Virus record (IMG/VR): IMGVR_UViG_3300025853_000612 | Location: 1-24,739 of that record | Length of the DNA: 24,739 nucleotides | Strand: one strand, 5' to 3' | Source of the DNA: a virus | Shown: in pieces, positions 649 to 24,739 of the stretch | How the letters are laid out: each line of letters starts with the position of its first letter | Numbering within the stretch: the stretch's first letter is position 1 | The notes under the pieces: model-generated | The model's input: only the letters and a program-made list of their open reading frames with translations | Told to the model about the DNA's origin: nothing | The model's database searches: none | Position numbers and translations under genes: made by a program

Positions 649-1173
649 GTGATCGTTCCCGACCACGAGATCCAGCGCCTGTGCCAGCAAGAGCGGATGG
701 TCGTTCCCTATGACCTTGAGCTGCTGAACCCCGCTTCTTTGGACCTGCGGATTGGCGAGAACATCATGGTCGAGGTTGAGCACACCTCAGAGCTGCAGAT
801 CCAGTCGATCGCTCATTGCACTAAGGACAACCCATATTGGATGGCTCCCGGCGAGTTCCTGCTCACCGAGACTCTCGAAGTGTTCAACATGCCGGCTGAC
901 ATCTGCGGCATGTTCTGCCTCAAGTCATCACGGGCCAGAGAGGGCTATGAGCACAGCCACGCGGGCTACGCCGATTGCGGATGGAACGGAAGCAAGCTCA
1001 CCCTGGAGTTGAAAAACAACAAGCGCTTTCATAATTTGCCGCTCTACCCAGGCATGAAGATCGGCCAGATGGTCTTCCTGCTGATGGTCACTAACCCTGA
1101 TTTGGATTATGGAGAAATTGGGCATTACAACGGTCAGCCCCGCGTGATGCCAAGTTGGGAGGAGTGTCTTTAG
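649..1173 (+). CDS. dcd: dCTP deaminase / dUTPase-family protein
   Basis: 174 residues, close to the usual length of dCTP deaminases. These convert dCTP to dUTP (some also hydrolyse dUTP to dUMP) and so feed thymidylate synthesis. Motifs seen: NPASLDLRIG at residues 27-36, FLLTETLEVFNMP at 70-82, KSSRAREG at 92-99, GYADCGWNGSKLTLELKN at 106-123 with Glu120 as the expected general base, PGMKIGQ, and a C-terminal YNGQP. The start is GTG at 649, because the overlapping ATG at 647 runs directly into TGA. With ThyX and the dNMP kinase on the opposite strand it forms a dTTP supply set. Whether it is mono- or bifunctional cannot be read from the sequence. Confidence 0.85.
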   Translation: MIVPDHEIQRLCQQERMVVPYDLELLNPASLDLRIGENIMVEVEHTSELQIQSIAHCTKDNPYWMAPGEFLLTETLEVFNMPADICGMFCLKSSRAREGYEHSHAGYADCGWNGSKLTLELKNNKRFHNLPLYPGMKIGQMVFLLMVTNPDLDYGEIGHYNGQPRVMPSWEECL

Positions 1174-1204
1174 CTACCCTTACTGGAAGCGGAGAGCCTC
1201 TCCC

Positions 1205-1381
1205 ATGCAGCGGTACTTAATCGAAGTAACCGGGAAGTTTTACTTCGAGACCGCGCAGGACCCTGAGAACATCCCAGGCGACATCTACGCCTGCATCTCA
1301 GAGTGCTTCAAAAGCGATGACGACATCATCGACATCGAGATCGCCACCTACGAACTTCCAAAAGATGGAGCATCAGATTGA
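1205..1381 (+). CDS. small hypothetical protein, 58 aa
   Basis: ATG at 1205 follows a GGAGAG stretch about nine bases upstream, a reasonable Shine-Dalgarno site. The protein begins MQRYLIEVTGKFYFE and is acidic, with alternating hydrophobic residues (DDIIDIEIATYEL) suggesting a small alpha/beta fold. It sits 31 bp after the dCTP deaminase gene and its last 17 bases overlap the HNH gene start, so it fits a short rightward operon. I do not recognise the family. Confidence 0.6.
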   Translation: MQRYLIEVTGKFYFETAQDPENIPGDIYACISECFKSDDDIIDIEIATYELPKDGASD

Positions 1382-1730
1382 TGGCATCTATCTCGTTAGC
1401 AAAAAAGCGAGTAAGCAACGCTTCCGTGCCTCAATCTTCTCCGCTTGGAACCACACCTGCGCCTACTGCGGGGACCACGCCACCACGATCGACCACGTAA
1501 AAGCCAAGGCTCACGGTGGTCCGACTACGCTCCGCAACTGCGTGCCAGCTTGCCTGCGCTGCAATGCCGACAAGTCCCACTCGTCGGTCTGGCTCTGGTG
1601 GATTAAGCAGCCCTTCTGGAACTTTTTCAGAGCTCACAAGCTGCTGTGCTGGATCAGTCGAAGCGAGCAGCCTTCATATGCTCTATGTAGATCTGAGCCT
1701 GCCACAGATCATTGGCATAACGGCCGATAG
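1365..1730 (+). CDS. HNH endonuclease
   Basis: 121 residues from ATG 1365. It has a complete HNH core: CAYCG (first zinc-type Cys pair), TIDHVKAKAHGG (catalytic His region), and the second half NCVPACLRCNADKS with another Cys pair and the Asn. HNH proteins nick or cut DNA. Stand-alone ones in phages are homing nucleases or act in packaging. This copy is far from any visible terminase gene, so a homing or free-standing nuclease is the simpler reading. Its 3' end overlaps convergently by 77 bp with the leftward gene ending at 1654. Confidence 0.85.
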   Translation: MEHQIDGIYLVSKKASKQRFRASIFSAWNHTCAYCGDHATTIDHVKAKAHGGPTTLRNCVPACLRCNADKSHSSVWLWWIKQPFWNFFRAHKLLCWISRSEQPSYALCRSEPATDHWHNGR

Positions 1731-1890
1731 AGCAATTCGGCATACAGGCCCGATAGCGAACTTCGCCAATTCCTGGCTCGGTGCTCACCTCGATATAGAA
1801 GCCGTCACCACAGTCGAAGGCGTCATCGGGAACGACGTACTCAGTGGTTGGCCCAGAAGGCTGAGCAGCTTTTTGCGAAGACTCCTCCAC
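1654..1890 (-). CDS. hypothetical protein, 78 aa
   Basis: Last gene of the leftward block. It begins MEESSQKAAQPSGP with a polar tail, then a compact stretch with three Cys residues (FDCGDGFYIEV, RACMPNCSIG) and an amphipathic C-terminus. Its start lies 50 bp inside the preceding leftward gene and its end overlaps the convergent HNH gene. No recognised family. Confidence 0.5.
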   Translation of the reverse strand: MEESSQKAAQPSGPTTEYVVPDDAFDCGDGFYIEVSTEPGIGEVRYRACMPNCSIGRYANDLWQAQIYIEHMKAARFD

Positions 1891-2149
1891 TGGATCGTCC
1901 CTCCGGGAAACCTAAACCGCATTGTGCCGCAACAAATTCCCAGTGGATGCAGTGCTGGCACCTGGGCTTGTTGTTTGTGATGGCCCGAGCGTCGGCATAA
2001 AGCTGCTCGGCTTCAATAACCGCCTGCTCAATCTCCTTGCAACTAAGCGGCAGATCAAGCTTGCCCGTGTGCGTCTTAATGCGGACACGCCAGCCCTCGG
2101 ATCCTTCGTACAGGACCATCCGGCCGGCGTGATACCGCAGTGAGGCCAC
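1841..2149 (-). CDS. hypothetical protein with C-terminal CxxC...C...C module
   Basis: 102 residues, GTG start at 2149 in a TAGTG overlap with the stop of the dNMP kinase gene, suggesting coupled translation. The N-terminal 60 residues look like a small alpha/beta domain. The C-terminus is C64-QH-C67-IHW, then C77-GLGFPEG, then FAKSC95. The four cysteines look like a zinc site. The same module occurs in four other proteins of this window (genes at 3266, 3432, 12522 and 17955). Function unknown; nucleic-acid or protein binding is an inference from the zinc-finger look. Confidence 0.65.
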   Translation of the reverse strand: MASLRYHAGRMVLYEGSEGWRVRIKTHTGKLDLPLSCKEIEQAVIEAEQLYADARAITNNKPRCQHCIHWEFVAAQCGLGFPEGRSSGGVFAKSCSAFWANH

Positions 2150-2691
2150 TAAGCGTGCGCTAGTAGTCGCAGCTTAGTTGTCAAGTCTTCAATCGCACCA
2201 TCATTAAATACAGCGCAATCGAAGCCGTTGTAATCGTTCAAGCTTCCTTCACTGGCGTGCTCAAAAGACTTGGGAATACCCGGTCTTTCGACATACCAAA
2301 GTGCGCCACCCAGGTTCTTGATCAACTGCGCCTCATTGAGGAAGCGGCAATCATCGACCACAACCTTGTCGTACTGCTTGATCCGCTCGGACCAGCAACG
2401 CAACCAGATTTCAGGGTGAACGCAGGATCGGCCCCACTCCGTGCCAAGCGTGCGAAGCATGTGCCGAACACTCACATCAGCAGATGGCACGACCACCTGC
2501 TTGTGCTTATAGACAAGATCCTCAGCCCCGGCCTGGTCGTAACCCAGGGCCTTGAGCATCGGAATCAGCATCTCCTTCAAGGTCTGGGCAAATGGCACGA
2601 TCGTGTAACCGCGCTCTTCCGCCAGCCATTGGGCGACGGTGGATTTGCCAGAGCCTGCAGCAGGGCTGTAGAGGCCGATCAGCTTCTTCAT
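2149..2691 (-). CDS. deoxynucleoside monophosphate kinase
   Basis: 180 residues. The P-loop is at residues 6-18 (GLYSPAAGSGKST). A segment VSVRHMLRTLGTEWGR at 73-88 and VVVDDCRFLNEAQLI at 110-124 match the phage dNMP kinase family (T4 gene 1 type), which phosphorylates dNMPs to dNDPs for phage DNA synthesis. Its ATG overlaps the previous gene's stop (TAATG at 2693-2689). Together with ThyX and dCTP deaminase it suggests the phage makes its own dTTP. Substrate range cannot be told from sequence; phages with modified bases also use relatives of this enzyme. Confidence 0.85.
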   Translation of the reverse strand: MKKLIGLYSPAAGSGKSTVAQWLAEERGYTIVPFAQTLKEMLIPMLKALGYDQAGAEDLVYKHKQVVVPSADVSVRHMLRTLGTEWGRSCVHPEIWLRCWSERIKQYDKVVVDDCRFLNEAQLIKNLGGALWYVERPGIPKSFEHASEGSLNDYNGFDCAVFNDGAIEDLTTKLRLLAHA

Positions 2692-2972
2692 TACTGGCCC
2701 GCCAACTGGGATGAGATAAAGGATGCGCGCATGATCTGGGCGGTGTCCTGCGCAAACTGGTCCATCAGACCGGTGTAAGTGCCGCGCAGACCAGGCTCAG
2801 CAGAGTCCCGCTCGTACAGCTTGTACAAGTAGTCAAGAAAGTCGGCTTTCCCTTTCTCGATTTGCCATGGCTTCAGCTCGGACAAGAGCTGTTCCGCGTC
2901 CAGCGACTGGGTCGCCCCAATAAACGATTCGCCCATCAAAGAACCAAGGCCGGTAGTAAGTTTCGATGCCAT
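2691..2972 (-). CDS. hypothetical helical protein, 93 aa
   Basis: Polar, mostly helical composition after residue 25 (AEQLLSELKPWQIEKG, ADFLDYLYKLYERD), ending in a TAATG overlap with the dNMP kinase start. Real coding character is clear in the C-terminal two thirds. The N-terminal part overlaps another frame (2833-3030) that also looks partly real, so the start at 2972 is uncertain. A later ATG is available at 2936. No family recognised. Confidence 0.6.
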   Translation of the reverse strand: MASKLTTGLGSLMGESFIGATQSLDAEQLLSELKPWQIEKGKADFLDYLYKLYERDSAEPGLRGTYTGLMDQFAQDTAQIMRASFISSQLAGQ

Positions 2973-3030
2973 AAAACAGCGGATGAGCGCCGTAGGAGCC
3001 TACCCCCGTGTTCGGGTGGTAGAGCGTCAC
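2833..3030 (-). CDS. possible overlapping small protein, 65 aa
   Basis: A GTG at 3030 sits in a GTGA overlap with the stop of the upstream leftward gene, the arrangement used by neighbouring genes. The first ~40 residues (MTLYHPNTGVGSYGAHP, then YYRPWFFDGRIVYWGD) look like genuine protein rich in aromatics. The rest looks like a shadow of the overlapping gene that starts at 2972. Either this is a true overlapping gene or one reading frame is a relic. Confidence 0.35.
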   Translation of the reverse strand: MTLYHPNTGVGSYGAHPLFYGIETYYRPWFFDGRIVYWGDPVAGRGTALVRAEAMANRERESRLS

Positions 3031-3266
3031 TTCTCAGCATCGGGCAGATGGTAGATGCGTTCCAGCTTCATGGAAGCCGGCTCATAATCGTCTGAAACAT
3101 CGTCCGGCTCTGAGTCGCCCCACGAGACAGCGTCGTTCTCATTGCGCAGCACCCAAGTAACAGTCGACTGGTACTGCTTGACGCAGATGAGTCCAATCCT
3201 TGGAGATTTCATCAACCAGCGAAAAATCGCCGCTTCTACCGGGTTGAGAAATGGGTGGGCTCGCAT
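3027..3266 (-). CDS. hypothetical protein, 79 aa
   Basis: The start was set at ATG 3266, in a TAATG overlap with the upstream gene, in preference to the in-frame start at 3296. The protein begins MRAHPFLNPVEAAIFRWLM, has a central beta-like segment (IGLICVKQYQSTVTWVLR) and an acidic stretch (DSEPDDVSDDYEP). No recognised domain. It is part of the coupled leftward chain between thyX and the dNMP kinase. Confidence 0.6.
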   Translation of the reverse strand: MRAHPFLNPVEAAIFRWLMKSPRIGLICVKQYQSTVTWVLRNENDAVSWGDSEPDDVSDDYEPASMKLERIYHLPDAEK

Positions 3267-3544
3267 TAGTTCGCCTCCGTGATCATCGCTGGGCATCCTT
3301 CCGCAAACCTCGTACCACCCTCAGGCAAGCCTAGGCAGCACCTATGGCTCCAATGCGCGCAGTTTGCACATGGTCCGCCACCAGCAAGTGGTTCGTACTT
3401 ACGCATCCGAGTCTCTTCTTTGATCTCGGCTTTACCGGCGGGCGTTCTGCGGTAGCAATCTGCGCAGATAACCGGATTGCGTGTGTCCTTGCCGCAAGAG
3501 GGGCAAATTCTCGTGTTGATTCGGCTCGTAGAGCGAGCACTCAC
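3266..3544 (-). CDS. double zinc-motif protein with CxxC module
   Basis: Two Cys clusters are visible: a zinc-ribbon-like CPSCGKDTRN then VICADCYRR, and the recurring module CANCAHW, CCLGLPEG, FAEGC near the C-terminus. The start is unclear. GTG 3544 is listed; ATG 3592 would extend further into the upstream gene; ATG 3409, preceded by an AAGAAGAG Shine-Dalgarno-like stretch, would give only the C-terminal module. In the overlap with the 3432-3875 frame (3432-3544) the Cys pattern favours this frame near 3440-3510. Function unknown; zinc and nucleic-acid binding are plausible. Confidence 0.55.
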   Translation of the reverse strand: MSARSTSRINTRICPSCGKDTRNPVICADCYRRTPAGKAEIKEETRMRKYEPLAGGGPCANCAHWSHRCCLGLPEGGTRFAEGCPAMITEAN

Positions 3545-3875
3545 TGGCGAACGATCCACCAGCTTCAGGGAACTGCATTGAACAGGAGCCATCTAACCAA
3601 TAAGAACAAGAGATGCAGGACTTGCGGGACTCGCTATTAGGCGGATCAAGGACTTGCAAGATCGCGGTATTTAGGCGAAGGAGCAGGTCGTACTCCTTCA
3701 TCTGTTTAGCCGTAATCTCGTAGGTTGTCTCGCTGAAGTTGCAGTTAAAGCAACGGCGTCGGAATCTACGTGCCGGATCTTGCTTGCGGCGGCGCGATTC
3801 AGTCACGTAGAACTTGCGCTGCCCGCATTTAGGACAAGACCTAACCGTCGTGTCTGGTCTACCGCGTTTGTTCAT
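3432..3875 (-). CDS. NrdR-like zinc ribbon fused to CxxC module
   Basis: 147 residues. The N-terminus has C14-PK-C17, then VTESRRR, RRR, C42-FN-C45 and ETTYE. This is the layout of the zinc ribbon of NrdR, the repressor of ribonucleotide reductase genes, but the ATP-cone that follows in NrdR is absent. Residues 87-113 hold the window's recurring module (CISCSYW, C98, QFPEAG, FASEC). The last ~30 residues overlap the next gene and may be fortuitous read-through. Its ATG overlaps the stop of thyX by four bases. A DNA-binding role at nucleotide-metabolism genes is an inference. Confidence 0.65.
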   Translation of the reverse strand: MNKRGRPDTTVRSCPKCGQRKFYVTESRRRKQDPARRFRRRCFNCNFSETTYEITAKQMKEYDLLLRLNTAILQVLDPPNSESRKSCISCSYWLDGSCSMQFPEAGGSFASECSLYEPNQHENLPLLRQGHTQSGYLRRLLPQNARR

Positions 3876-4594
3876 GGCGCCAACCTCGCTTTACCAAGAC
3901 GCTTGTCGATGTAGTAGCCCAGGATCTGGGGAGCCCAGTCCTGCAGGTGAGGAAGCATCAAATCGCAGAGAGTCTGGATCTCAGGCTGCGCATCAGCCTT
4001 GGCCCGCAGGTCAAGGAAATGGAGCGCACTCCGCAGGTTGAAGCTGACTACAAAGTTCTGGCGAAAGTCAAACGGCAGCATCCCGCGAATGTGCTCCTCA
4101 GCGAAGCCAGCTTTAAGGCGAATGGCGTACTGCCGAATCGACTCCATGGCCGCAACCTTGTCACGGCTTAGATCGTCGGCGGAGTAGCGGTACTTCTTGC
4201 CGTCGCGATCCCTGTAATACCCAGGCTCGCGAAAGTAAATCGCCGCCTCAACAGGCATCTCGCCGTTCACCACTTTGACCATGCGCTGGCCCGTGTAGCG
4301 CATCGATTGCACGTCAAAGCTGACGCCAACGCGATGCGTCCGAGCTTGCTGCATCACGGAGTGAGGAAACCCAGCGACACCAAACGTGATCGACGGGTGC
4401 TCAAGCGGACCAAAGTGACCACGCTCGCCAGCTAAAAGGCGCTTGACGCAGATTTCACCGGCGCGAGGTTCAGACGGCGGCTCGTCATCACCGACGTAAC
4501 CCTCGTAATAGTCCTGGTGCATGGCAGACCACACCAAGGTCTGCGGGTTGTAGGTCCGTGCAAGAACCTCAACCCTTAAATACTGGTCCGCCAT
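3872..4594 (-). CDS. thyX: flavin-dependent thymidylate synthase ThyX
   Basis: 240 residues from ATG 4594, which overlaps the upstream stop (TGATG); a TTG one codon earlier is possible. ThyX methylates dUMP to dTMP using FAD, NADPH and methylenetetrahydrofolate, and works as a tetramer. The signature region THRVGVSFDVQSMRY at residues 86-100 is a variant of the family RHRxxSxNxxSxRY pattern. ERGHFGPLEHPSITF at 58-72 and MLPFDFRQNFVVSFNLRSALHFLDLR match other conserved ThyX segments. Surrounding dCTP deaminase and dNMP kinase genes fit a dTTP pathway. Confidence 0.93.
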   Translation of the reverse strand: MADQYLRVEVLARTYNPQTLVWSAMHQDYYEGYVGDDEPPSEPRAGEICVKRLLAGERGHFGPLEHPSITFGVAGFPHSVMQQARTHRVGVSFDVQSMRYTGQRMVKVVNGEMPVEAAIYFREPGYYRDRDGKKYRYSADDLSRDKVAAMESIRQYAIRLKAGFAEEHIRGMLPFDFRQNFVVSFNLRSALHFLDLRAKADAQPEIQTLCDLMLPHLQDWAPQILGYYIDKRLGKARLAP

Positions 4595-4824
4595 CAAACA
4601 ACCGCAACGGTGGACATGGGCCAGCGCGCTTTCGCATACTTCAACGCATGAGTCTTGGACTCAGCCCGAAGCTCTACGAACATTGGACTCGCGCCAACCT
4701 GAGAGACGCGGATCCTAAAAGGCTTGGTTTTGGCACCTGGAACGGCCCTGCTAATGCCGTCGCCGTGCTGGGATTTAGATTCCGCATCATCATCCCAAGT
4801 AGTGTTCAATGCAAAGTCCGACAC
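4594..4824 (-). CDS. hypothetical protein, 76 aa
   Basis: GTG start at 4824, first gene after a divergent gap. The stop overlaps the thyX ATG (TGATG). The N-terminus is polar (MSDFALNTTWDDDAESKSQ). A central FRIRVSQVGASPMFVELRAESKTHALKYAKARWP has the strand-then-helix look of the small beta-alpha proteins phages use as regulators. Unrecognised. Confidence 0.55.
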   Translation of the reverse strand: MSDFALNTTWDDDAESKSQHGDGISRAVPGAKTKPFRIRVSQVGASPMFVELRAESKTHALKYAKARWPMSTVAVV

Positions 4825-7206: not shown

Positions 7207-9084
7207 TCACTTGGCCTCGGACCAGGTTTTACCCCAAGCTGCTTCGGCCAGAGCAGGGATTTCTCCGAGCCACTTGGATTCAGCTGCTTCCATGGTTTCG
7301 CTCAAACGCTTGGCCCATTCCTCTTCAAGCCCTTCACGTACCAGCAGCACAATTTCGTCATGGACGACAGCGGCGAGCCGGACTTGCGAGGTGCCGGTTT
7401 TATGGAGTAACGGCCAGAGATTCGCAAGCGCAAACTTAAGAATGGCCGCGCCAGCTCCCTGAATTGGGGTGTTGCATCGAGTAGTCAGGCGGTTCATATC
7501 GCCAATAAGGAAGCGACGCATCTCCGTCTTTGGAATGCGAATTTCGGCAAACCTTTCATGCTCAGTCATCTTGGCGAGGTTGGCGTTCTTCCTCTGCCAG
7601 TCATGAATGCCCTGATAGGTGTTGTGGAACGTCTCGCGGATCTTTTCCGCTTCCTCCACAGTCATGGTGATACCCATGGCACCGGCATAATCCCGAAGTC
7701 CTTTGGCCCCCGAGCCGTAGAGCAGCCCGAAGTTTGCTGACTTGGCTACTTGGCGACGCGCTTTGAGCTCCGCTTCGTCCTCAGTCGGTTCGGGATAAAT
7801 CGCCTGGGCAGTAATCGTGTGCAGGTCTTCATCGCGTTGGAACGCACTAATCATCAGAGCGTCCTTAGAGACTGCGGCGGCGAGACGAAGCTCCATCTGA
7901 CCAAAGTCAGCGACAACAAAGTTCCAACCCTCGGGCGCTTCAGCTGCCTGACGGAACCCTTTGTCCCGCGGGACCTGCTGAAGATTCGGCTCCCGGCACG
8001 ACATCCTTCCGGTATCCGCCCCAAGTTGCAGGTAATTCGCACGAATAAACCCATCGCGGTCCTGGTGATCGAGTAGTGCCACGACCATCTGACGGCGCTT
8101 CTCAGCTTTCTTCCAGGCCAAATACAACTGAATGACCTTGTGGTCCGCTGCATAAGAACGAAGAGCCTGCCGAGACGCACTTGGCTTGCCGTTCTTGTCC
8201 TTGGGCTCCTCGCCCAGGAGGACGCCAAGCTTGTGAACCAGCTGCTTAGGCGAGTTGAGATTGAAGCCAGCCAGCTTCTTGGTTCCGAGCCTTACGTGGC
8301 CCGTCGCTTTGGCCCGCAAATTGAACGTGCCATCGTCATCCCGTGGCAGCTTCTCCGCGTCAGGCATCGCGGCATCGAGGTTTTCAAGAAACTCGGCACC
8401 TAGCCGCTCAATCTCGCCCTCATAGTGCTTTTGCAGCTCTTCAAGCTTGGTCCGGTTGAAGGGAAGACCGGTCAGCTGCATGTGAGCGATGGCCTGTAGA
8501 GCTCTGCACTCAATCCGCCAAGCCGTAAAGAGACGGCGAGCAAACAGGAGATCGGTGACCTTCTGAGCAAGCTGCAGAAGGATGCGAACGTCGTTGGCGG
8601 CGTAGGTCTTCTGGGACTCGCTGAGATCCGGTTTAGACCAGTCAGAAGCTTGCTCTTCCTTACTGACCTCAATCTTGAGATAGCGCTTGCAGGCCGGCGC
8701 TAGGCCGTTGCGCACATTGGGGATGCCGTTCTCCAGCAAACGCGAAGCCAGCATGGTGCAGAACACCATCCCCTCGGGGTAGATGTCGTGTTGCTGGAGC
8801 CAGGCCAAGTCAAAGGTGGCGTTGTGGGCGTACCACTCACGATCTTCGATGGCGGTGAAGAACTCCCTGACCTGATCCCACTGCTCCTCGTCAAGATCCC
8901 AGAGGTCAATAACGACCACCGGCTTACCTGGTGCGGCCAACTGCAGTAGACGTAAGCCGCCAGTCTTGGGCTTAAGTCCCGTCGTCTCTGTGTCGAAGGC
9001 AATGAGTGGGGAGTCGTAGACCCAGTGAAGGAACTCGATTCCGTGGAGCGTCTCAGGTGACGCAGACCAATCAGTGAACGTCAT
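7207..9084 (-). CDS. polA: DNA polymerase I family (PolA) with 3'-5' exonuclease
   Basis: 625 residues, the replicative polymerase candidate. Exonuclease motifs: FDTETTGL (Asp31, Glu33), NATFDLAWL (Asp92), TYAANDV (Tyr161, Asp165), so proofreading should be intact. Polymerase motifs: A is VVADFGQMELR (Asp393), where most relatives have DYSQIELR; B is RRQVAKSANFGLLYG (Lys448, Phe452, Tyr456); C is VVHDEIV (His575, Asp576, Glu577). Phe452 corresponds to E. coli Pol I Phe762, a residue used in viral ecology as a marker, with Phe usually in virulent phages. There is no 5'-3' exonuclease domain. A palindromic TTGTAGTACAAT lies ~20 bp upstream, shared with the ligase gene. Confidence 0.95.
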   Translation of the reverse strand: MTFTDWSASPETLHGIEFLHWVYDSPLIAFDTETTGLKPKTGGLRLLQLAAPGKPVVVIDLWDLDEEQWDQVREFFTAIEDREWYAHNATFDLAWLQQHDIYPEGMVFCTMLASRLLENGIPNVRNGLAPACKRYLKIEVSKEEQASDWSKPDLSESQKTYAANDVRILLQLAQKVTDLLFARRLFTAWRIECRALQAIAHMQLTGLPFNRTKLEELQKHYEGEIERLGAEFLENLDAAMPDAEKLPRDDDGTFNLRAKATGHVRLGTKKLAGFNLNSPKQLVHKLGVLLGEEPKDKNGKPSASRQALRSYAADHKVIQLYLAWKKAEKRRQMVVALLDHQDRDGFIRANYLQLGADTGRMSCREPNLQQVPRDKGFRQAAEAPEGWNFVVADFGQMELRLAAAVSKDALMISAFQRDEDLHTITAQAIYPEPTEDEAELKARRQVAKSANFGLLYGSGAKGLRDYAGAMGITMTVEEAEKIRETFHNTYQGIHDWQRKNANLAKMTEHERFAEIRIPKTEMRRFLIGDMNRLTTRCNTPIQGAGAAILKFALANLWPLLHKTGTSQVRLAAVVHDEIVLLVREGLEEEWAKRLSETMEAAESKWLGEIPALAEAAWGKTWSEAK

Positions 9085-9116: not shown

Positions 9117-9284
9117 TCAGGGCAAAAGGTGCCCCCGGTGGCCCCTGGTCCGTGTAGTCGAACCAGGTGGTAGCGCATCGCGTAACCAGTTCGGCGGTGG
9201 TTCAGGAATGGCCCGCTCCAACTCGGAGAAGAAGCGCGCAAAACGCTCCTTCTCCGTCGGTGGGGTGAAGGTCTTCCGTTCCAT
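9117..9284 (-). CDS. tiny hypothetical protein, 55 aa
   Basis: ATG 9284 overlaps the primase-helicase stop (TGATG). The protein begins MERKTFTPPTEKERFARFFS, continues ELERAIPEPPPNWLRDAL, and ends in a basic tail. The TEKERFARFFSELE helix looks genuine. It fills the gap between the helicase and polymerase genes, so it may belong to the replication complex, but this is only position. Confidence 0.5.
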   Translation of the reverse strand: MERKTFTPPTEKERFARFFSELERAIPEPPPNWLRDALPPGSTTRTRGHRGHLLP

Positions 9285-11785
9285 CAGCCCCACTCCTCAG
9301 CGATCTGCCGCATGGCTTCGCGCTTCTGCTCGTAGCTGAAGGCGGGGTCGTCATCCTCGCGCGCGCCTGCGCGTATAGAGCGTTCCGATGTCCCTTTACC
9401 CTCAGATCCCTGTTGCTCCAAGGGATTCAAAAAGGGACACTCTGAATCTGAAGAGAAGTTGTCCCTTTTTGTCCCCTCCGTTCCAGCGGCGTTATCACCG
9501 GCTTGAACCTGGCCCTGAGTAAAAGGGACAACTTCCTCTTTTTCAGATGCTGTCCCTTTTTCAAATCCCGTACCACTACTGGGATTAGGCCCTAAAGGGA
9601 CATTTTCAACACACTCTCCCCGCGGGGGAACAACCACAGCCCTATACAAAAACTGAGGTTTCTTGCCTTGAGTTTCTTGAGACGCACCCACGATCTCCAC
9701 CAGGCCCTTCTTCTTCCAGCGTTGGAGCGCCTTCTTGACGGCTTCGTTGTTGCCGCCGCAGGTGGGGTCTGCTTGGAGCTGCTTGAGGGTTCTGGGCTCC
9801 TTAGCCAGCCGAAGCCGCTGAAGCACCCTGTCGCTGATTCCAGAGGGCGCTGCGTTGGTCGGATCGACCTCTGGGGTCCAGTCCTGGAGCGTGTAGCTCA
9901 AGTCGGCCTGCTGCTTCATCAGCAGCTGCGTGCCACCGCGACCGCTGCGGGATTTCTCGAACGTCAAGATCCGCGCGGACTGGCCCGTCTGCTCGATCTG
10001 CTTGTCGTCAGGTTTTTTCAGCGAGATGACCTCATCCACGCTGTCCCTAATGGCAGAGCTGCCCCTGAAATTTCCATTTTTGTTCGCGTGGTGGATTACC
10101 ACGATGGTTGTGGGAGGGAATGCGTCGCCGTTGTTCCGGGTCAGCCAATACAGCGGAGTGGCGAAGTCGCTCTTGTTTTCGTCGAAGGCCTTACCGCCGC
10201 TGCAGCCAATCAACGAGTCGATGATCACGAGCTTGGGCCGGTACTTCTCGATCTGGCGGATGAAGAAGGCGTATCGCTGGATCTGGAAGTCGCTGCGGAT
10301 CGTCACGTTGGTTCCACGAGGGAAGTCCACCTCCTCCAACTGCTCCTGCACCTGAATCAGCGGCTGGTCGCCGTTGAGGATCAGAACGCCGCCCTTCTGC
10401 ACCGGAACCTCCTGACCACGGATCTTGAATGGCGCGCCAGTAGCGATGTGCTTAGCCAGTGTCCAAGCAGCCATCGACTTGCCATCGCCGCCAGAGCCGT
10501 ACATCAGAACCGTGGAGGGCGTGGCCAGCAAATCCGGGATCAAGTACTCCCGCTGGAAGTCGGTGTCCAGAAGCGTGTCGATGCTGATCGCATCGCGGCT
10601 CTTCTCATACGCGAGCTGATCAACGAGGATCCGCTCGATCTTCTCGGCATCCCTGTGGCCCGCCTCAACGGCCAGCCGGTGCATCTCATAGTTCAGCTCA
10701 GCGGGGTTTTCGAGCTCGATGATCTGCTTGGCACGCTCAAGGAGTTGCTCGAAGGAGAGGGCAACTGTCTGGAAGCGTTGAACCTGCGAGCTCTCGACCT
10801 GCTCAAGCGTTTCCCTGCTGGAGTCTTGAAATCGTTCCCTGTTGGGGTCGTAGCCGTCTGCAAGGCGGATCAGGCTGCCCAGGCCGGCGTTACCCGGTCG
10901 ACCCGCCTTCTGCAGGATCAGAGGCCATTTCTCGGCGCAGGGGTTGCCCCGCTTCCAATCCTCCTCGTAATCAGAGTCTTCAGCGGACCAAGCAGACCAC
11001 AGGGTCAGGCCCAGGTCGTTGGGCAGGTCTTCGGCAATCATTGCGCCGACGATCCACCAGTCGTCCTCATTACCCCGCCCGCACTGAGGCAGCACGGTCA
11101 AACAGTCGCGAATGATTTCAGCGACCTCGTCCTCGGTTCTCCCGGAAAAGTCGAGGCCCTTTCGGTTCTTGACAAGGCCGCTAGTCTGGGACGGCGTATC
11201 CTGTACGTAGCGAGCACGCATCTCAGCCAAGAGCCACTCAGGAGCCTGAGGGATCTGGTTGAAGTCACCTGCTGCAAGCTTGTAAGTACCTGCAGGTGCT
11301 TTGCCATCGGAGGAACCGGGGTAAGTACCGCCGATTACGCCTTGCTTGCCCCACAGAACCTCGTAGCCCTCACCGGTGTGTGAGAGGCCAAAACCCTTGA
11401 CCTGAGCTCTCTGATCCTCAGGCACACGGAAGACGTACTTAGCAGCATTCTTCTTCGTACTAATAATCTTGGGTGCGTCTTTTAGTGAGTCGCCCCACTT
11501 TTTTGACAAGGTTGCGAGGTTTGCGTCTACGTCGAGAATGACGAGACCCTGAGAGCGAATTCCGGTAAATAAGCCAACCGCAACGAACGCATCTGGGTCT
11601 CGCTCTAAGAACAGTGCGACATCACCAGGCGACATGTGCCGCTTAAACGAATCCTCGTGAGGGTTCTTGCCCTTACTGACGATGCGGTTCTTTCCGTAGA
11701 CAACACCCTTCGCATAAATAGGCGTATAGGCGGGACCAACAGGAAGCGAATTAACGAATCCAATGAGTTGTTTGTTGGGACTCAT
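9284..11785 (-). CDS. primase-polymerase / RecA-type helicase fusion
   Basis: 833 residues from ATG 11785; the open frame continues upstream to 11953, but that stretch is Cys/Arg-rich and crosses the divergent region. Domain order: N-terminal PrimPol (archaeo-eukaryotic primase type) with catalytic LDVD at Asp85/Asp87 and GGTYPGS near 152-158; a PriCT-like segment DDWWIVGAM at 241-249 to EKWPLI; a RepA/AAA_25-type ATPase with Walker A YGSGGDGKS (429-437), Walker B LVIIDS (519-524) and IHHANKNGNFRGSSAIRD; a winged-helix-like part; then a low-complexity tail. It should unwind DNA and prime replication. The DNA coding the tail holds the dyad at 9389-9602. Confidence 0.88.
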   Translation of the reverse strand: MSPNKQLIGFVNSLPVGPAYTPIYAKGVVYGKNRIVSKGKNPHEDSFKRHMSPGDVALFLERDPDAFVAVGLFTGIRSQGLVILDVDANLATLSKKWGDSLKDAPKIISTKKNAAKYVFRVPEDQRAQVKGFGLSHTGEGYEVLWGKQGVIGGTYPGSSDGKAPAGTYKLAAGDFNQIPQAPEWLLAEMRARYVQDTPSQTSGLVKNRKGLDFSGRTEDEVAEIIRDCLTVLPQCGRGNEDDWWIVGAMIAEDLPNDLGLTLWSAWSAEDSDYEEDWKRGNPCAEKWPLILQKAGRPGNAGLGSLIRLADGYDPNRERFQDSSRETLEQVESSQVQRFQTVALSFEQLLERAKQIIELENPAELNYEMHRLAVEAGHRDAEKIERILVDQLAYEKSRDAISIDTLLDTDFQREYLIPDLLATPSTVLMYGSGGDGKSMAAWTLAKHIATGAPFKIRGQEVPVQKGGVLILNGDQPLIQVQEQLEEVDFPRGTNVTIRSDFQIQRYAFFIRQIEKYRPKLVIIDSLIGCSGGKAFDENKSDFATPLYWLTRNNGDAFPPTTIVVIHHANKNGNFRGSSAIRDSVDEVISLKKPDDKQIEQTGQSARILTFEKSRSGRGGTQLLMKQQADLSYTLQDWTPEVDPTNAAPSGISDRVLQRLRLAKEPRTLKQLQADPTCGGNNEAVKKALQRWKKKGLVEIVGASQETQGKKPQFLYRAVVVPPRGECVENVPLGPNPSSGTGFEKGTASEKEEVVPFTQGQVQAGDNAAGTEGTKRDNFSSDSECPFLNPLEQQGSEGKGTSERSIRAGAREDDDPAFSYEQKREAMRQIAEEWG
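9389..9602. repeat. nested ~214-bp dyad of TGTCCCTTT words
   Basis: Three nested arm pairs share one centre near 9495: TGTCCCTTTA (9389-9398) with TAAAGGGACA (9593-9602); the 9422-9439 arm with 9551-9569 (nearly perfect); and GAAGTTGTCCCTTTT (9455-9469) with its exact complement at 9521-9535. Neighbouring words also pair: AAAAGGGACA and TGTCCCTTTT are separated by 20 bp on both sides (9430-9439 with 9460-9469; 9521-9530 with 9551-9560). The words fall in all three codon phases of the helicase tail, so the repeat is not a protein repeat. It could be an origin, a large RNA hairpin, or an inserted palindromic element. Confidence 0.85.
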
Positions 11786-11811
11786 GCGATACTCGGTAGG
11801 TAGACGACATG

Positions 11812-11848
11812 CGCTCCGTTTGGTGTAAAAACCAGGCGGAGCGTTTTT
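11812..11848 (+). terminator. strong rightward terminator-like hairpin in the divergent region
   Basis: CGCTCCG (11812-11818) pairs with CGGAGCG (11837-11843), with an inner TTGGT/ACCA pairing, and TTTTT follows at 11844-11848. It points rightward although the annotated genes to its left run leftward. It may stop antisense transcription or act as an attenuator in the leader of the gene at 11947. Confidence 0.65.
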
Positions 11849-11872
11849 CACAGTACGCATCTCGTCAAGGGG

Positions 11873-11893
11873 TTGACACACCACATAAGGTGT
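11873..11893 (+). promoter_or_regulatory. TTGACA box with overlapping inverted repeat
   Basis: A consensus -35 hexamer TTGACA is at 11873-11878. It abuts an inverted repeat ACACC-ACATAA-GGTGT at 11878-11893, which could be an operator. No good -10 box stands 16-18 bp downstream (GGGCAA is there), so the promoter would need an activator or a different factor. It lies 54-74 bp before the ssDNA-binding candidate gene. Confidence 0.35.
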
Positions 11894-11946
11894 TTGGGCA
11901 ACTCGGCAACGCCACCTACAGCGGCACCGCCATCCAGCAACCCCCC

Positions 11947-12525
11947 ATGGCACTCCTATCCAAATCCGCCAAAGCAGCAGTCAGCGGCGGCACTGGCGGT
12001 TACCTCAACCCCAGCAAGATTGTCTCCAACACCAGCGTTCGTTTCGCTTTGTTAAGCGAAGAGCCTGTCGAGGGCTACGAGCTCTGGGCTGAAGACGGCG
12101 ACGGCAAGGCCAAGTCCTTCCGCTTCGACCACGAGCCCACCCCGGCTGAGATCGACGCCAGCCTCGGCGAGTACAACCGCCGGATGAACCGCGAAGGCAC
12201 TGGGTTCGAGCCGATGAAGTTCTTCATCGCTCTGCCCGTGTACAACTACGACACCGAGCGCGTCGAAGTGATGCAGCTCAACCAGAAGGGCCTGATTCGC
12301 GAGATCGACTCGATCTCCCAATCCGAGGACTGGAACGTCCTTGAGTGCGACTTCACCCTGGGCAAAACCGGCGCAGGCCTCACCACCGAGTACAAGCTCC
12401 TTCCTGCCAACCGCAAGAAGGGCATGGACGAAGTGCTGGCCGACGCCTGGGCCGAAACCCAAGCAGCAGGCTTCGACCTGAGTCAAGTGATCAGCGGCGG
12501 CAACCCTTTCCGCCCCGAGGCTTGA
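11947..12525 (+). CDS. putative phage ssDNA-binding protein
   Basis: 192 residues from ATG 11947; the frame is open upstream to 11809 but that part crosses the terminator hairpin. It begins MALLSKSAKAAVSGGTGGYL, then a beta-rich core with VRFALLSEEPVEGYELWAED, KFFIALPVYNYDTERVEVMQ and QLNQKGLIREIDSI. I recall this layout from phage proteins treated as single-stranded DNA-binding or OB-fold proteins, where the aromatic VYNYD segment contacts DNA. The tail is short and not strongly acidic, unlike most SSBs. First gene of the rightward block, opposite the primase-helicase, which suits a replication role. Confidence 0.55.
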   Translation: MALLSKSAKAAVSGGTGGYLNPSKIVSNTSVRFALLSEEPVEGYELWAEDGDGKAKSFRFDHEPTPAEIDASLGEYNRRMNREGTGFEPMKFFIALPVYNYDTERVEVMQLNQKGLIREIDSISQSEDWNVLECDFTLGKTGAGLTTEYKLLPANRKKGMDEVLADAWAETQAAGFDLSQVISGGNPFRPEA

Positions 12526-15309: not shown

Positions 15310-16131
15310 GTGCCTGACCGCACTCCCTTACCTCTTATCCCCGTGGTCTCCTTACAGCAGCTGTCGACCGCCGAATTACGGCACCAGATCCGCGGCGACA
15401 ACGCCGCTTACCGCACTGGCACGCCCCGCGTAACCGACGAAGAGTTCGATCGCAAGATCGTCGAGCTTCGCCGTCGTGATCCCCAGGCCAAAGAGCTGTA
15501 CGACAAGGGCGACCCGGAGATGCTGAGCCTCGACAACTACCCATTTGAGGACTGGCTTGAGAAGATCCGTGTGACTCCGTCGCTGGTAGTACAACCCAAG
15601 ATCGACGGTTGCACCTTGGCTCTGCGCTATGTCAGCGGCATCCTGACTGAAGCCTGGAACCGCAAAGGCAAAGACTTGACCGCATTGGCCCGTCAGATCC
15701 CCGCCATCCCCTCAGTCATCCAACAGGGCGGCATCTTTGAAGTACACGGCGAGCTCTACGGCATCGACAAAGCGCATTCCCAAAGTGACGCTGCCCAGGC
15801 CATGCGCTTTATGAGCCTGGAACGCAAACCGACCAACAAAGACCCGCGCACCCGCCGCAACCTGGGTTTCTGCGCTTTCCGCCTCTACGGGGCGACCAGC
15901 AACGAAACCATTGCGCTAGGCGCACTAGCCAAGCTTGGCTTTGAGGTTCCCGACAACCTTCTCTGCCCCGCAAAGCAAGTCCGCCAAGTTTTCGAGGAAT
16001 GGCGCGATGACAAGCGCTTTACCAAGTGGCAGTGCGACGGGATTGTCGTAAAGGTCCACGATCACGCCACCCAACAAAAGCTGGGCCAGAGTGACTTGTG
16101 CTTCAACTGGGCACTCGCCATCAAGCACTGA
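15310..16131 (+). CDS. NAD+-dependent DNA ligase, Ia plus adenylation domain only
   Basis: 273 residues, GTG start. An N-terminal Ia-like segment (AELRHQIRGDNAAYRTG, VTDEEFDRKIVELR) suggests NMN binding. Nucleotidyltransferase motifs: I QPKIDG with Lys97; NRKGKDLT near 117-124; III FEVHGELYG at 143-151; IIIa LGFCAFRLYG; IV CDGIVVKV at 242-249; V NWALAIKH at 266-273. The protein ends at motif V, so the OB-fold, zinc finger, helix-hairpin-helix and BRCT parts of LigA are absent and are not in the next gene. It should form the ligase-AMP intermediate; sealing would need a partner or an unusual mode. Confidence 0.85.
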   Translation: MPDRTPLPLIPVVSLQQLSTAELRHQIRGDNAAYRTGTPRVTDEEFDRKIVELRRRDPQAKELYDKGDPEMLSLDNYPFEDWLEKIRVTPSLVVQPKIDGCTLALRYVSGILTEAWNRKGKDLTALARQIPAIPSVIQQGGIFEVHGELYGIDKAHSQSDAAQAMRFMSLERKPTNKDPRTRRNLGFCAFRLYGATSNETIALGALAKLGFEVPDNLLCPAKQVRQVFEEWRDDKRFTKWQCDGIVVKVHDHATQQKLGQSDLCFNWALAIKH

Positions 16132-20258: not shown

Positions 20259-20426
20259 ATGGACCAGCCTCGAATGCGCGACCCACGTAATCAGGACGAT
20301 TTTGATACGTGGGAGTACGGGACTGAGCCTTTGCCTGGCGACCGCACCTGGACTAAGCAGGCGGCATTGGCACGGTTACTGGAGCAAGTTCATTGGAAGC
20401 GCGGGACTCGCAGCCATCCGGTTTAA
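20259..20426 (+). CDS. tiny hypothetical protein, 55 aa
   Basis: From ATG 20259 (MDQPRMRDPRNQDDFDTWEY); a GTG at 20232 in frame is an alternative. Acidic first half, then a helix (KQAALARLLEQVHWKRG). Its last eight codons overlap a copy of the 23-bp motif (20404-20426), just as the nuclease gene's end overlaps copy A. It is the last gene with the codon usage of the rightward block. Confidence 0.45.
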   Translation: MDQPRMRDPRNQDDFDTWEYGTEPLPGDRTWTKQAALARLLEQVHWKRGTRSHPV

Positions 20427-20553
20427 GTGGCGGGGGACTCGCTAGACCGCGGTTTATCGCGCACGCGGGGGCGCGGGACTCGCGAGGTTCCGGTTTTAGG
20501 CCCTTACGCGCACACACAAAAAATGCTGGGGGACTCGCGGGGGTCCGGTTATA
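20404..20553 (+). repeat. four copies of the 23-bp motif GGACTCGC-N7-CGGTTWWA
   Basis: Copies at 20404-20426, 20435-20457, 20476-20498 and 20531-20553, all in the same direction, all with a 7-bp gap; the second ends in T instead of A. Copies at 20476 and 20531 are each followed by GGCCC and the last by TTTTT. With 14426 and 14467 this makes six copies. Confidence 0.8.
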
Positions 20554-20780
20554 GGCCCTTTTTCACACACACCCTCACATACACACGCACACGGCGCCCC
20601 AGGGGGGTGGGGGCGAGTTTTCCTGGCCTTATATTATACAAACTGTGCGGCCCTAAGTAACACAAACTAATCGTAAATACAGGGGTCAGTGTAGCAAACT
20701 CTAGTTGAGTAAGCTACATCGAAAGTGTGTCTACAGCTAGTTTGTTACATCAAGCCCAAGAGTTACTAAAATCAACCGGG
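20554..20780. other. CA-rich then AT-richer spacer with hairpin
   Basis: 20567-20600 is a run of CACACAC-type words. 20630-20770 is AT-richer than both sides. A hairpin GTAGC-AA-ACTC, TAGTT, GAGT-AA-GCTAC spans 20691-20717. GTAACACAAACTA near 20657 is nearly the inverse of TAGTTTGTTAC near 20738. No gene is supported, although a GTG frame from 20727 runs into the repeat array. An AT-rich stretch beside iterons is what plasmid-type origins look like. Confidence 0.5.
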
Positions 20781-20782
20781 TG

Positions 20783-20907
20783 CACGGTTTGCAACGCTTA
20801 CCACGTGCGCGGTTTGCGTTGCTTACTGTTGGCCGGTTTGCATTTAGAACGCGTTGCCGGTTTGCGTCGCTTACCGCGTGCACGGTTTGCAACGCTTACC
20901 GGGTGCG
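20783..20907 (+). repeat. five imperfect ~24-bp iteron-like tandem repeats
   Basis: Units of 23-26 bp with the consensus CGGTTTGCnnCGCTTACC followed by nCGTG. The first and last units are identical over 22 bp (20781-20802 and 20879-20900). The third unit is the most degenerate. The array lies directly after the AT-richer spacer and just before the GC-rich genes. The core CGCTTACC recurs in their leaders. Candidate Rep-type binding sites. Confidence 0.7.
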
Positions 20908-21042
20908 GCGTGGTGCACACGCCGACGGCCGCACGTTCGCGCCGTGGCGCGTGGTGGTGACAACGCGGCCGGATGACGCGCCGGCCTACTTGCCGGGTGC
21001 ACGCGCACCGGGTGCGCCGTTTGCGTTTGCCGCGTGCGCTGC

Positions 21043-21062
21043 TATATATGGGCGCGCTTACC
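21043..21062 (+). promoter_or_regulatory. TATATAT box and CGCTTACC leader word
   Basis: TATATAT at 21043-21049 stands out in very GC-rich sequence and could be a -10 box; CGCTTACC follows at 21055-21062, 15 bp before ATG 21077. No clear -35 hexamer. Confidence 0.35.
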
Positions 21063-21076
21063 GTTTATCTGCCGTC

Positions 21077-21631
21077 ATGGCCTATTACTTGCCGTCCGAA
21101 CCGACCGCGCGCGCTGCCGTTACGTGCGCGCCGCGCGGCGTCGCCGTTGTGCCGTTCGCTGCCGTTGCCGACGTGGTGCGCGACGCCGGCGTGCGTTTGT
21201 TCCGCGCCAAACGTTTCGCCGTTTACGCGACAAACGCGGACGCCGAACGCGTGCGCGACGCAATTGGTGACCGCGTGTGCGCCGACGTGGTGCGCGCCGT
21301 TGCCGACGCCGCGCCGTTCGCTGCCGCGTCCGTTGTTGTGGTGGTATCGGCTGCCAACGCGTCCGAATGGCGAACGCTTGCGTGGTGCGGCGTGCGTTGC
21401 GTGATCCCTGAAACGCGCACCGGGTGCCGTCCGTTTATTGCGCACAACGGCTTAAGCGATCCGCGGTGGTGCGTTTCGCTTGCCGACGCCGTGGCGTTTG
21501 CTGCCGGCGTTTCCGACAACGCGGCCGAAACCGCGGCGCCGCTGCCGGTGCTGCCGGGTGAGCTCGCACCACCACCGGCGCCGGTGCACGCCGACGCGGC
21601 GCCGACGCTGCCAACGCTTGCGCGTGCGTGA
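21077..21631 (+). CDS. unknown protein of the GC-rich block, 184 aa
   Basis: The start was set at ATG 21077 because CGCTTACC precedes it as it does three other genes of the block; the frame is open upstream to 20780 through the iterons. Ala/Val-rich. Segments: FRAKRFAVYATNADAERVRD, a hydrophobic strand ASVVVVVSAANASEW, then TLAWCGVRCVIPETRTGCRP with three Cys and FIAHNGLSD, and a Pro/Ala-rich tail. The strand-helix pattern suggests an alpha/beta fold. I do not recognise it. Confidence 0.55.
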   Translation: MAYYLPSEPTARAAVTCAPRGVAVVPFAAVADVVRDAGVRLFRAKRFAVYATNADAERVRDAIGDRVCADVVRAVADAAPFAAASVVVVVSAANASEWRTLAWCGVRCVIPETRTGCRPFIAHNGLSDPRWCVSLADAVAFAAGVSDNAAETAAPLPVLPGELAPPPAPVHADAAPTLPTLARA

Positions 21632-21733
21632 CAATCGCGCGGCCGCACACGCGCCGATAGCTTGCGCGCCGACGTGCCGGCAGAATGACCGCGGACGCGT
21701 TGCGCGTCCGTTTATCGCTTACCGCTTGAAACC

Positions 21734-21940
21734 ATGGCCTACGAAACCGTCCGCGTGCCGTCCGCCACGTCTTACGTGGTGGAACGTTTCCACGGCGCTT
21801 TAAACGGCTGGCAGCCTGAAACCGACCGGCTGCCGCTTGCCGTTGCCGAACGCCGCGCACGCTTGCGCCGCGCCGTGCGCGGTTCTGAATTTATTTATCG
21901 CGTCGCGCCGTACGTGCACACGTTCCGCGTCGCCGTTTGA
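21734..21940 (+). CDS. unknown small protein of the GC-rich block, 68 aa
   Basis: The leader CGCTTACCGCTTGAAACC runs directly into the ATG; there is no Shine-Dalgarno site. The product begins MAYETVRVPSATSYVVERFH and ends in a basic, aromatic segment (SEFIYRVAPYVHTFRVAV). It could be a small beta-rich protein. No family recognised. Confidence 0.5.
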   Translation: MAYETVRVPSATSYVVERFHGALNGWQPETDRLPLAVAERRARLRRAVRGSEFIYRVAPYVHTFRVAV

Positions 21941-21975
21941 CCGTCCGACCGCTTACCGCTCACCACCTAGAAACC

Positions 21976-22311
21976 ATGCCAACAACGCACGAGAAACCAC
22001 GTCACCCGTTGTCAGGCGCGCCGCTGCCGGCGCCGTTCCGCGGTCCCGTGATTGTCACGCGCTACGCGAACGGCAAGATTCGCGCGTCGCACAAGCGCGA
22101 CCGTGAAACCACATACCGGTGCGCCGTGCCGTACAACAACGGCGCCGATACCGACGCAAACCACCAGACCGCGGCCGCGTGGTTGCTGGCTAAGTGTTTC
22201 GATGACGCGCCGCGCATGACGCTCATCGCCTTAGGCCATGACGCCGACGCTTACTACCACGTGGCAGTTGGCACGTGGCAGCTTCCAGAAACCACCAACG
22301 CCGACGCTTGA
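21976..22311 (+). CDS. small hypothetical protein, plasmid/phage-type family
   Basis: 111 residues from ATG 21976, preceded by CGCTTACC and GAAACC. Segment VIVTRYANGKIRASHKRDRE, then YRCAVPYNN, NHQTAAAWLLAK and YYHVAVG. I recall short proteins on plasmids and phages with the pattern 'GxRIkA....PY.....NH..AA..L..K......Y.fV' and no known function; this may be a longer version. Its TGA is four bases from the next ATG (TGAAACCATG). Confidence 0.5.
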   Translation: MPTTHEKPRHPLSGAPLPAPFRGPVIVTRYANGKIRASHKRDRETTYRCAVPYNNGADTDANHQTAAAWLLAKCFDDAPRMTLIALGHDADAYYHVAVGTWQLPETTNADA

Positions 22312-22315
22312 AACC

Positions 22316-23056
22316 ATGACAACGACAACCACCACGCCGACCGTTTCGCTTGCCATGGCAAACGGCGACCGCGTCGACGCGCCGACGCGTTGGCACGGCC
22401 GCGCGTTGTGCGTGCATGCACCCGTGGCGCACGTACGTGACGGCAAACGGACGCGCGGCGTTTGGGCGATCACTGGCCACGTGCACGGCCTAAGCGCCGG
22501 CGTTTACCGCGGCAAGCTTGCCGACGCCGTGCGTTTGGCGCGCGTTTGGGATGACGCGTTTGCCGACGCGTTGCCAACGTGGCGCACAACGGCGCCAAAC
22601 CTTTCTAAATGGCCGCACGCGCAAGAATGGAACCGCCAACTACGCGGCGAAACGGCGCCAGTAGGGCCGGCCGGCACCGGTGAAACCGTGCGCACCCGTC
22701 CGCGCGTTGCCGCTGCCGACGGTGACGGCGCCGAACAGTTACCGGTAACGCCAACTATCACGCCGGCCGGTTCCGGCCGTGTGCGTTACGCGGCAACGCT
22801 CAACAACGGCAAACCGCGTTTGCGTCATCCTGAAACCGGCGCCGCGTTGCGCATGCATGGCGACGTTGTGGCGTTTAAAGGCCCCGACCCGTTCGTGCCG
22901 GTGTTTCGCTTGTGGTGGCACGGCGTTTGGGTCGACGTTCCGACAATCGCCGAATGCATGGAGTGGGCAGCGGATGGCGTCGCCGAAACACCGGCCGGCG
23001 ACCGCGTAGAAACCGACGCGCCCGACTCGTGGTTGTCACTCTTAGGTGTTGTCTGA
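22316..23056 (+). CDS. unknown protein of the GC-rich block, 246 aa
   Basis: ATG 22316 in the tight TGAAACCATG junction. Thr-rich start (MTTTTTTPTVS), then TRWHGRALCVHAPVAHVRDG and TRGVWAITGHVHGLSAGVYR, LADAVRLARVWDDAFADALP, a polar linker (~residues 110-150), and a second part with RVRYAATLNNGKPRLRHPET and FRLWWHGVWVDVPTIAECME. It looks like two small domains, each with strands followed by a helix. Function unknown. Confidence 0.55.
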   Translation: MTTTTTTPTVSLAMANGDRVDAPTRWHGRALCVHAPVAHVRDGKRTRGVWAITGHVHGLSAGVYRGKLADAVRLARVWDDAFADALPTWRTTAPNLSKWPHAQEWNRQLRGETAPVGPAGTGETVRTRPRVAAADGDGAEQLPVTPTITPAGSGRVRYAATLNNGKPRLRHPETGAALRMHGDVVAFKGPDPFVPVFRLWWHGVWVDVPTIAECMEWAADGVAETPAGDRVETDAPDSWLSLLGVV

Positions 23057-23091
23057 AACGCCGCACCCGTTCCGCTTACCGCTTAGAAACC

Positions 23092-24204: not shown

Positions 24205-24235
24205 GCGCCGACGCACCACCACCACCACCACGCAC

Positions 24236-24260
24236 GGCGCCGTTAACGCGGCGCCTTTCT
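24236..24260 (+). terminator. terminator-like hairpin after the GP88-type gene
   Basis: GGCGCC (24236-24241) and GGCGCC (24250-24255) flank GTTAACGC; TTTCT follows. Placed 32 bp after the stop codon, it would close the five-gene GC-rich unit. A CACCACCACCACCACCAC run lies just before it. Confidence 0.6.
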
Positions 24261-24739
24261 CGTGCGCGTACGTGTGCGGCGTTTCCACGCCACGCCGTAC
24301 GGCCGCACGCATGACAACGCCGAAACGTCGCACGCGGTAAGCGCGCGAACGTGGCCGGCCAAACCACACGCCGACGCACCACGCGGCCACCACCACAACG
24401 GCGCCGCACGCGTTGCCGGTGGTGCGTCATGCCGTGCCAACAATGGCCGGCGTTCGTGACAACAACGCCACGCACACGGCACCGGGTGCACGCCGTCGAC
24501 GTGGTGCACAACGTGGCGCGCTGCCGACAACAACAACGCAAACCACGCCGCACGTTTCAGACAACAACGCCGGCGCAAGTCTGCCGCACGTGTGCACGTC
24601 GCCGCGTTGATTAGTTAGCTATTGTTTTAATTTAGTAATCACTAAATTACACAAACACAAAACACTTACGATTGTCGTTTATATTTATATGCTTACTCGC
24701 GGGTCCTTTTGCCGCCCAGACCTGCGAGGTATTTCGAGC
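24261..24739. other. non-coding tail of the GC-rich block and AT-rich palindrome
   Basis: No convincing gene on either strand. 24261-24600 keeps the block's word style and repeats (A/G)ACAACAACG-type words near 24458, 24526 and 24559. After 24611 the sequence becomes AT-rich with a perfect hairpin TAATTTAGT-AATC-ACTAAATTA (24628-24649). Near 24695, TACTCGCGGGTCC resembles part of the 23-bp motif copy at 20531 but lacks the second half. Confidence 0.5.

Follow-up and report, generated by a model that had tools for sequence, protein, structure and literature searches.

In the window, by which we mean the whole 24,739-nt IMG/VR virus contig analyzed here, the final ~330 nt of a primase-helicase gene contain a conserved array of short inverted words, and this array is probably an origin of the iteron type, to which the primase-helicase that is encoded over it binds. 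An iteron origin fits the combination of a putative reader in the same gene, sites at the 3' end of that gene, helical phasing of the sites, and arrays in the same place on plasmids, which must replicate. The array itself, its conservation, its helical phasing, its independence of coding, the concerted change of its words and the covariation of the words with residue 740 of the protein are established by computation.

The array consists of six exact copies of the 9-mer TGTCCCTTT/AAAGGGACA between positions 9389 and 9602. A search of the whole 24.7-kb contig, as the earlier note had recommended, found none elsewhere. The orientation of the words alternates strictly, with plus-strand copies at 9389-9397 (TGTCCCTTT), 9460-9468 and 9551-9559, and minus-strand copies at 9431-9439, 9522-9530 and 9594-9602. 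The start-to-start distances of 42, 29, 62, 29 and 43 bp, given already in the earlier note, were confirmed and are close to mirror-symmetric. The shared dyad axis proposed near 9495 was also recovered: the outer words are centered on it, as are the arm pairs 9455-9469/9521-9535 (15 bp, 100%) and 9426-9439/9551-9564 (14 bp, 93%), and the two arm pairs with a 20-nt gap are present. A seventh core, TGTCCC, lies on the plus strand at 9470-9475, and is also found in the close relatives L007-L009. At each end of the array, an inverted word pair forms a module, of 51 bp at 9389-9439 and of 52 bp at 9551-9602; the first encloses an inner dyad AATCCC...GGGATCT, and the second encloses AATCCC...GGGATT. 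The mean GC content of the array is 0.53, the same as that of the gene.

We used a detector that reports any 8-mer clustered in both orientations, with shuffled windows serving as the null model. The largest mixed-orientation cluster had six members, compared to a maximum of three in the shuffles, and six 8-mers were not reached in any of 5000 sequences that encode the identical peptide with synonymous codons. The codon phases of the six words are 2, 0, 2, 1, 0 and 0; thus, all three phases are used, in agreement with the earlier note. The array is neither a product of chance nor imposed by the protein sequence.

Four profile searches of viral contigs yielded 167 distinct homologues of the primase-helicase. 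In 153 of them, the 3' end of the gene has four or more words, with both orientations represented; 10 have three words, and the four without any run off contig ends. The close relatives L007-L010 (61-96% identical) retain the array, and in L010 the same words are read in other frames. In complete phage contigs, the word of the respective lineage is clustered where the helicase gene ends (3'), in a stretch no longer than ~250 bp. Several lineages (L159, L165, L181, L190 and L203) encode a shorter protein and carry 3 to 8 words past the stop codon; therefore, the array is kept whether it is translated or untranslated. It is a conserved DNA array and not a peculiarity of a single gene. The earlier claim that selection acts on the nucleic acid and not on the protein is borne out, since homologues keep the words while the frame and the amino acids change, and some arrays lie past the stop. 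Homologues in which the tail amino acids are kept and the DNA symmetry is lost had been named as the observation that would speak against this claim; the reverse was found. The protein tail was also considered as the selected feature, and was ruled out by the frame changes together with the synonymous-recoding nulls.

These data bear on one of the three readings offered in the earlier note, namely, that the array is an in-frame inserted palindromic element similar to those of Rickettsia. The low-complexity tail, the palindromic DNA and the preserved frame are compatible with such an insertion, whereas the presence of a single cluster per genome, its shared position in ~150 homologues, none of which showed an empty site, the fit of the word to the protein, and the arrays outside the reading frame make it hardly credible. 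Neither copies in unrelated genes nor empty sites, which characterize Rickettsia-type insertions, were found.

It should be noted that the array is not universal in the wider family. Some distant RepA relatives (L230, L231, L232, L235 and L011 of S-CBS4) are without it, and the named phage records include only remote relatives, e.g., Synechococcus phage S-CBS4, that are likewise without it. A search of genome collections returned five matches only, in MAG contigs with mixed, unreliable host labels. Scanning viral contigs for the DNA pattern AAAGGGACA...TGTCCCTTT yielded few clusters; simple hairpins resembling terminators predominated, and homology searches were therefore used instead. Neither these words nor arrays embedded in coding sequence turned up for this helicase family in the open-licence full texts searched.

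Across the homologues, the spacings are strongly quantised: within TGT..ACA pairs they are 10-12, 21-23, 32-34, 42-46, 53-57, 77, 88-90 and 99, and within ACA..TGT pairs they are 14-16, 26-29 and 37. A period of 11.0-11.2 bp, and not of 3, fits these values best; this is approximately the DNA helical repeat of ~11 bp; the P value associated with this spacing assumes independent draws and, because the homologues are related, serves as a guide only. As a rule, two modules of ~50 bp flank a middle module, the length of which varies, and an interval of 27-28 bp separates it from each of them. An end module of ~49-51 bp is common to most homologues, the middle spacing ranges from ~20 to ~99, and many words are direct repeats. 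For example, the word starts of phage L162 are exactly 43, 28, 43, 28 and 43 bp apart. The interiors of the modules hold a further dyad, AATCCC...GGGAT(C/T)T.

The gene that contains the array (9284-11953, minus strand; start codon uncertain) encodes a PriCT_2 domain, an AAA_25/RepA-like ATPase, a predicted winged helix and the low-complexity tail. Pfam searches matched AAA_25 (3.7e-16) and PriCT_2 (1.6e-5), the PHROG matches of the product are to primase/helicase, and the ATPase fold is nearest to RadA and to RSF1010 RepA (1nlf/1olo). In AlphaFold models, a helix-helix-helix-strand-strand unit follows C-terminal to the ATPase domain at moderate confidence (pLDDT about 75). It comprises residues ~706-770, encoded at 9644-9838 on the minus strand, and Foldseek aligns the predicted domain to ArsR/MarR/Fur-type winged helices, with weak E-values and a probability of ~1. 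We propose that this domain reads the words. Its third helix, residues 736-749, is the predicted recognition helix, and Lys740 (codon 9734-9736, minus strand) is situated early in it.

The words change in concert across each array. TGGGACA is found in most homologues, AAAGGGACA in the group of the window, GGGGACA in L010, L143, L146 and L278, TGCGACA in L164, and TGGACA in two or more groups. Among 354 protein columns, residue 740 ranks first as a predictor of the word class. Arginine at this position accompanies T-GGGACA in 34 homologues and TAGGACA in three, lysine accompanies A/G-GGGACA in four of five, and histidine, glutamine, glycine or threonine accompanies TGGACA or GCGACA in all 22 cases. 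The exceptions to the rule are L281, with lysine and T-GGGACA, and L311, L447 and L432, with arginine and TGGACA. In a tree from which the winged helix was left out, eight of nine changes of word class coincide with a change at residue 740, the highest value of the 354 columns; with about nine word switches, eight of them accompanied by a switch of a recognition-helix residue, the family constitutes a natural experiment in protein-DNA coevolution. A comparison of independent pairs gave 5.8 concordant and 0 discordant pairs (p = 0.03). These results strongly suggest sequence-specific binding of the words by the winged helix of the helicase itself. Covariation is indicative of binding and says nothing on what the binding does.

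A different function was proposed in the earlier note, namely, a long mRNA hairpin controlling the downstream polA. The in silico fold that it called for is strongly stable for the 223-nt strand (-100.5 kcal/mol, z = -7.4), which speaks for this reading; however, the opposite strand folds alike (z = -8.9), which is an automatic consequence of inverted words in DNA. The ~11-bp phasing follows the DNA helical repeat, direct and inverted words are mixed, the middle spacing is variable, and the words covary with a predicted DNA-binding helix. Searching Rfam gave no family match for the array, and a strand-specific fold was also absent. We consider control by an mRNA hairpin very unlikely, and of the three readings in the earlier note it is the origin that the data favor.

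A second conserved DNA element, CTATACGCGCAGGCGCGCGCGAGG (9355-9378, minus strand), lies just past the last word on the gene strand. It takes the forms TATACGCGCGCGAGG, TATCCCCGCGCGAGG and TATACGCGC, positioned roughly ten to twenty bases past the last module. Of 58 homologues, 52 have the pattern in the 85 bp that follow the array, compared to 2 of 290 control segments. It occurs in several frames, and 14 copies lie past the stop codon. This GCGCG/CCCC element may be a priming or opening site.

Primase-helicase genes of cyanobacterial plasmids also have arrays in the corresponding place, but their words are quite different. The proteins of the Anabaena, Nostoc C057, Aulosira and Nostoc HK-01 plasmids are distant relatives of the helicase of the window, and those of the DUF3987 and VapE types share the N-terminal domain alone with the Nostoc C057 protein. 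The arrays contain eight copies of TTGGACAA in Anabaena pANACY.03, six of AACCTAAC in Nostoc C057 (with four directly past the stop codon in Aulosira), six of ATGTGGAC in a 7.6-kb Oscillatoria plasmid, 12 of CAGTAGTC in Crinalium, and eight to nine of GGTGGAAC in two Nostoc plasmids. In a Microcystis plasmid of 7 kb, eight copies of AAAGGTGA, mostly in one orientation (L237:7-218), lie ~440 bp past an apparently shortened DUF3987 gene.

As a control, the same 8-mer detector was applied to phage P4 and recovered both ori1 and crr; for N15 repA, it found no exact-word cluster. In P4, 46 bp separate the end of crr, annotated as "cis required region for replication", from the 3' end of the alpha gene. 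The crr and ori1 are ~4.5 kb apart and carry the same type 1 repeats, TGTTCACC, the inverted copies of which have a 43-bp spacing.

Binding of the words by the helicase would be equally expected if the array were an autoregulatory or road-block operator, at which the bound helicase controls transcription into polA and no replication starts. The evidence for binding is identical for the two explanations, and polA (7207-9084) directly follows the primase-helicase gene on the same strand. However, the array is located where the gene ends and not at a promoter, an operator would need fewer sites than the six to eight, phased and grouped in three modules, that are present, plasmid primase-helicases with other neighboring genes also carry arrays, and the equivalent site of P4 is, by its annotation, required in cis for replication. 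An operator thus appears unlikely. Somewhat less likely still is another cis site, for the same or another DNA-binding protein, that serves in partition, packaging or satellite recognition or as a crr-like helper of a distant origin. The separation of P4 crr from ori1 despite their shared type 1 repeats is a precedent for such a helper, and plasmid6 of Scytonema carries an additional array whose word differs; against this, each of the phages examined has one array per genome, i.e., a second site of the P4 type was not found. The Scytonema array (eight copies of GGTGTGAA in mixed orientation, L239:16604-16807) is far from the helicase gene, and perhaps represents sites of another protein.

The preferred reading, an iteron-type origin, has a well-known precedent for its location in lambda ori, in which the sites of the initiator are embedded in the initiator gene O, as proposed here, although O is not a helicase and the sites are in the middle of the gene beside an AT-rich stretch. 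Published analogues of the combination of reader and origin are P4 alpha, pRN1 and RSF1010 (PMC4234260). The alpha protein unites primase, helicase and winged helix in one polypeptide and binds short words in both orientations (PMC4234260). The crr is directly past the 3' end of its gene, and in our case the words are at or beside the 3' end of the helicase gene; the inverted pairs of P4 are 43 bp apart with an outer span of 51 bp, compared to 49-52 bp here, and TGT is at the outer edge of the word. Conversely, the present protein combines a RepA/RecA-like ATPase with PriCT_2, whereas alpha has an SF3 helicase and a Toprim-type primase; the words of the window are all in the coding tail, and in some relatives they are partly or mostly past the stop codon; each genome has a single array, with no separate ori1; and a tail comes after the winged helix. 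With a RepA-like and not an SF3 helicase, and with sites in the coding region, the system does not belong to the P4 family proper.

In SaPI Rep and SCCmec Cch2, the iteron origin that the C-terminal domain of the helicase recognizes lies immediately 3' of the helicase gene (PMC7581432), although those origins are non-coding and have short direct repeats, and the helicases belong to other families. If the C-terminal domain of the present helicase likewise matched its iterons, the covariation of residue 740 with the word would be expected. The pRN1 ORF904 and Bordetella phage BIP-1 proteins are primase-helicase-winged-helix proteins with a required palindromic or stem-loop element 3' of the gene, and PriCT_2 is present in the BIP-1 protein as well (PMC4234260); one stem-loop and no iterons are reported there, in contrast to a palindrome of repeated, phased words here. 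The oriV of RSF1010 is similar in that its initiator reads iterons and loads RepA, the ATPase fold of which is close to that of our protein, but RepA, RepC and RepB' are separate proteins, and the iterons are long direct repeats accompanied by an AT-rich region. Classical iteron origins of the RSF1010 and RK2 type have direct iterons of ~20 bp and an AT-rich region; the present words are 7-9 bp long and mostly inverted. The best explanation, by analogy, is that the array works like P4 alpha/ori/crr and SaPI Rep/ori.

We infer physical binding, the origin function and the role of the second element, and propose the following scheme. The array would provide the iterons for the protein whose gene overlaps them; the winged helix following the RepA-like ATPase would bind each word, with residue 740 helping to set the word sequence. 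With whole helical turns between the words, the protomers would all sit on the same side of the double helix, grouped in modules of ~50 bp that each hold an inverted pair. Assembly on the array would then load the helicase ring and deliver the fused primase, so that replication of the phage would start there, and the GCGCG/CCCC element beside the array may be the place of duplex opening or priming. Since the site is inside the 3' end of the gene itself, reader and site travel as one cassette. Against an origin, cumulative GC skew is monotone in complete relatives, with no switch at the array (a result that is uninformative in itself), the array is not AT-rich, and neither an AT-rich unwinding element nor a DnaA site was identified. 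The homologues that deviate from the residue-word rule and the distant relatives lacking an array also count against it.

We lean, with some reserve, toward a broader interpretation in which the coding-embedded origin of phased inverted iterons is a widespread replicon design, shared by this phage group and by cyanobacterial plasmids that encode primase-helicases of the DUF3987, VapE and AAA types, with a word of its own in each lineage, set by the winged helix of that lineage according to a simple residue-to-base code. If true, the repetitive tails (KGT...VPF and similar) would be origin DNA read in any frame, and not functional peptides, which would explain the repetitive, frame-shifting appearance of these helicase tails. 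For a large group of uncultured phages, and for several plasmids too, a particular replication site and the protein that reads it could then be put to the test, and mixed-orientation words at the 3' end of a primase-helicase gene suggest a rule for finding origins in other replicons.

Several other features of the contig were observed. Genes of nucleotide metabolism (dCTP deaminase-like, deoxynucleotide monophosphate kinase and ThyX) are at 649-4597, and a short NAD-dependent DNA ligase with the adenylation domain only is at 15310-16131. From 20300 to 24739, GC content rises from ~0.58 to ~0.67 and the gene style shifts, with a GP88-like ORF at 22912-24204; this part may have been acquired recently or may reflect a chimeric join in the assembly. 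Several direct GGGACTCGC...CCGGTTTA-like units, about 60-70 bp apart, are present in non-coding DNA at 20350-20620, and are possibly repeated promoters. Short repeats GGTTTGC(A/G)(A/T)CGCTTACC are found at 20830-20990 within a questionable ORF.
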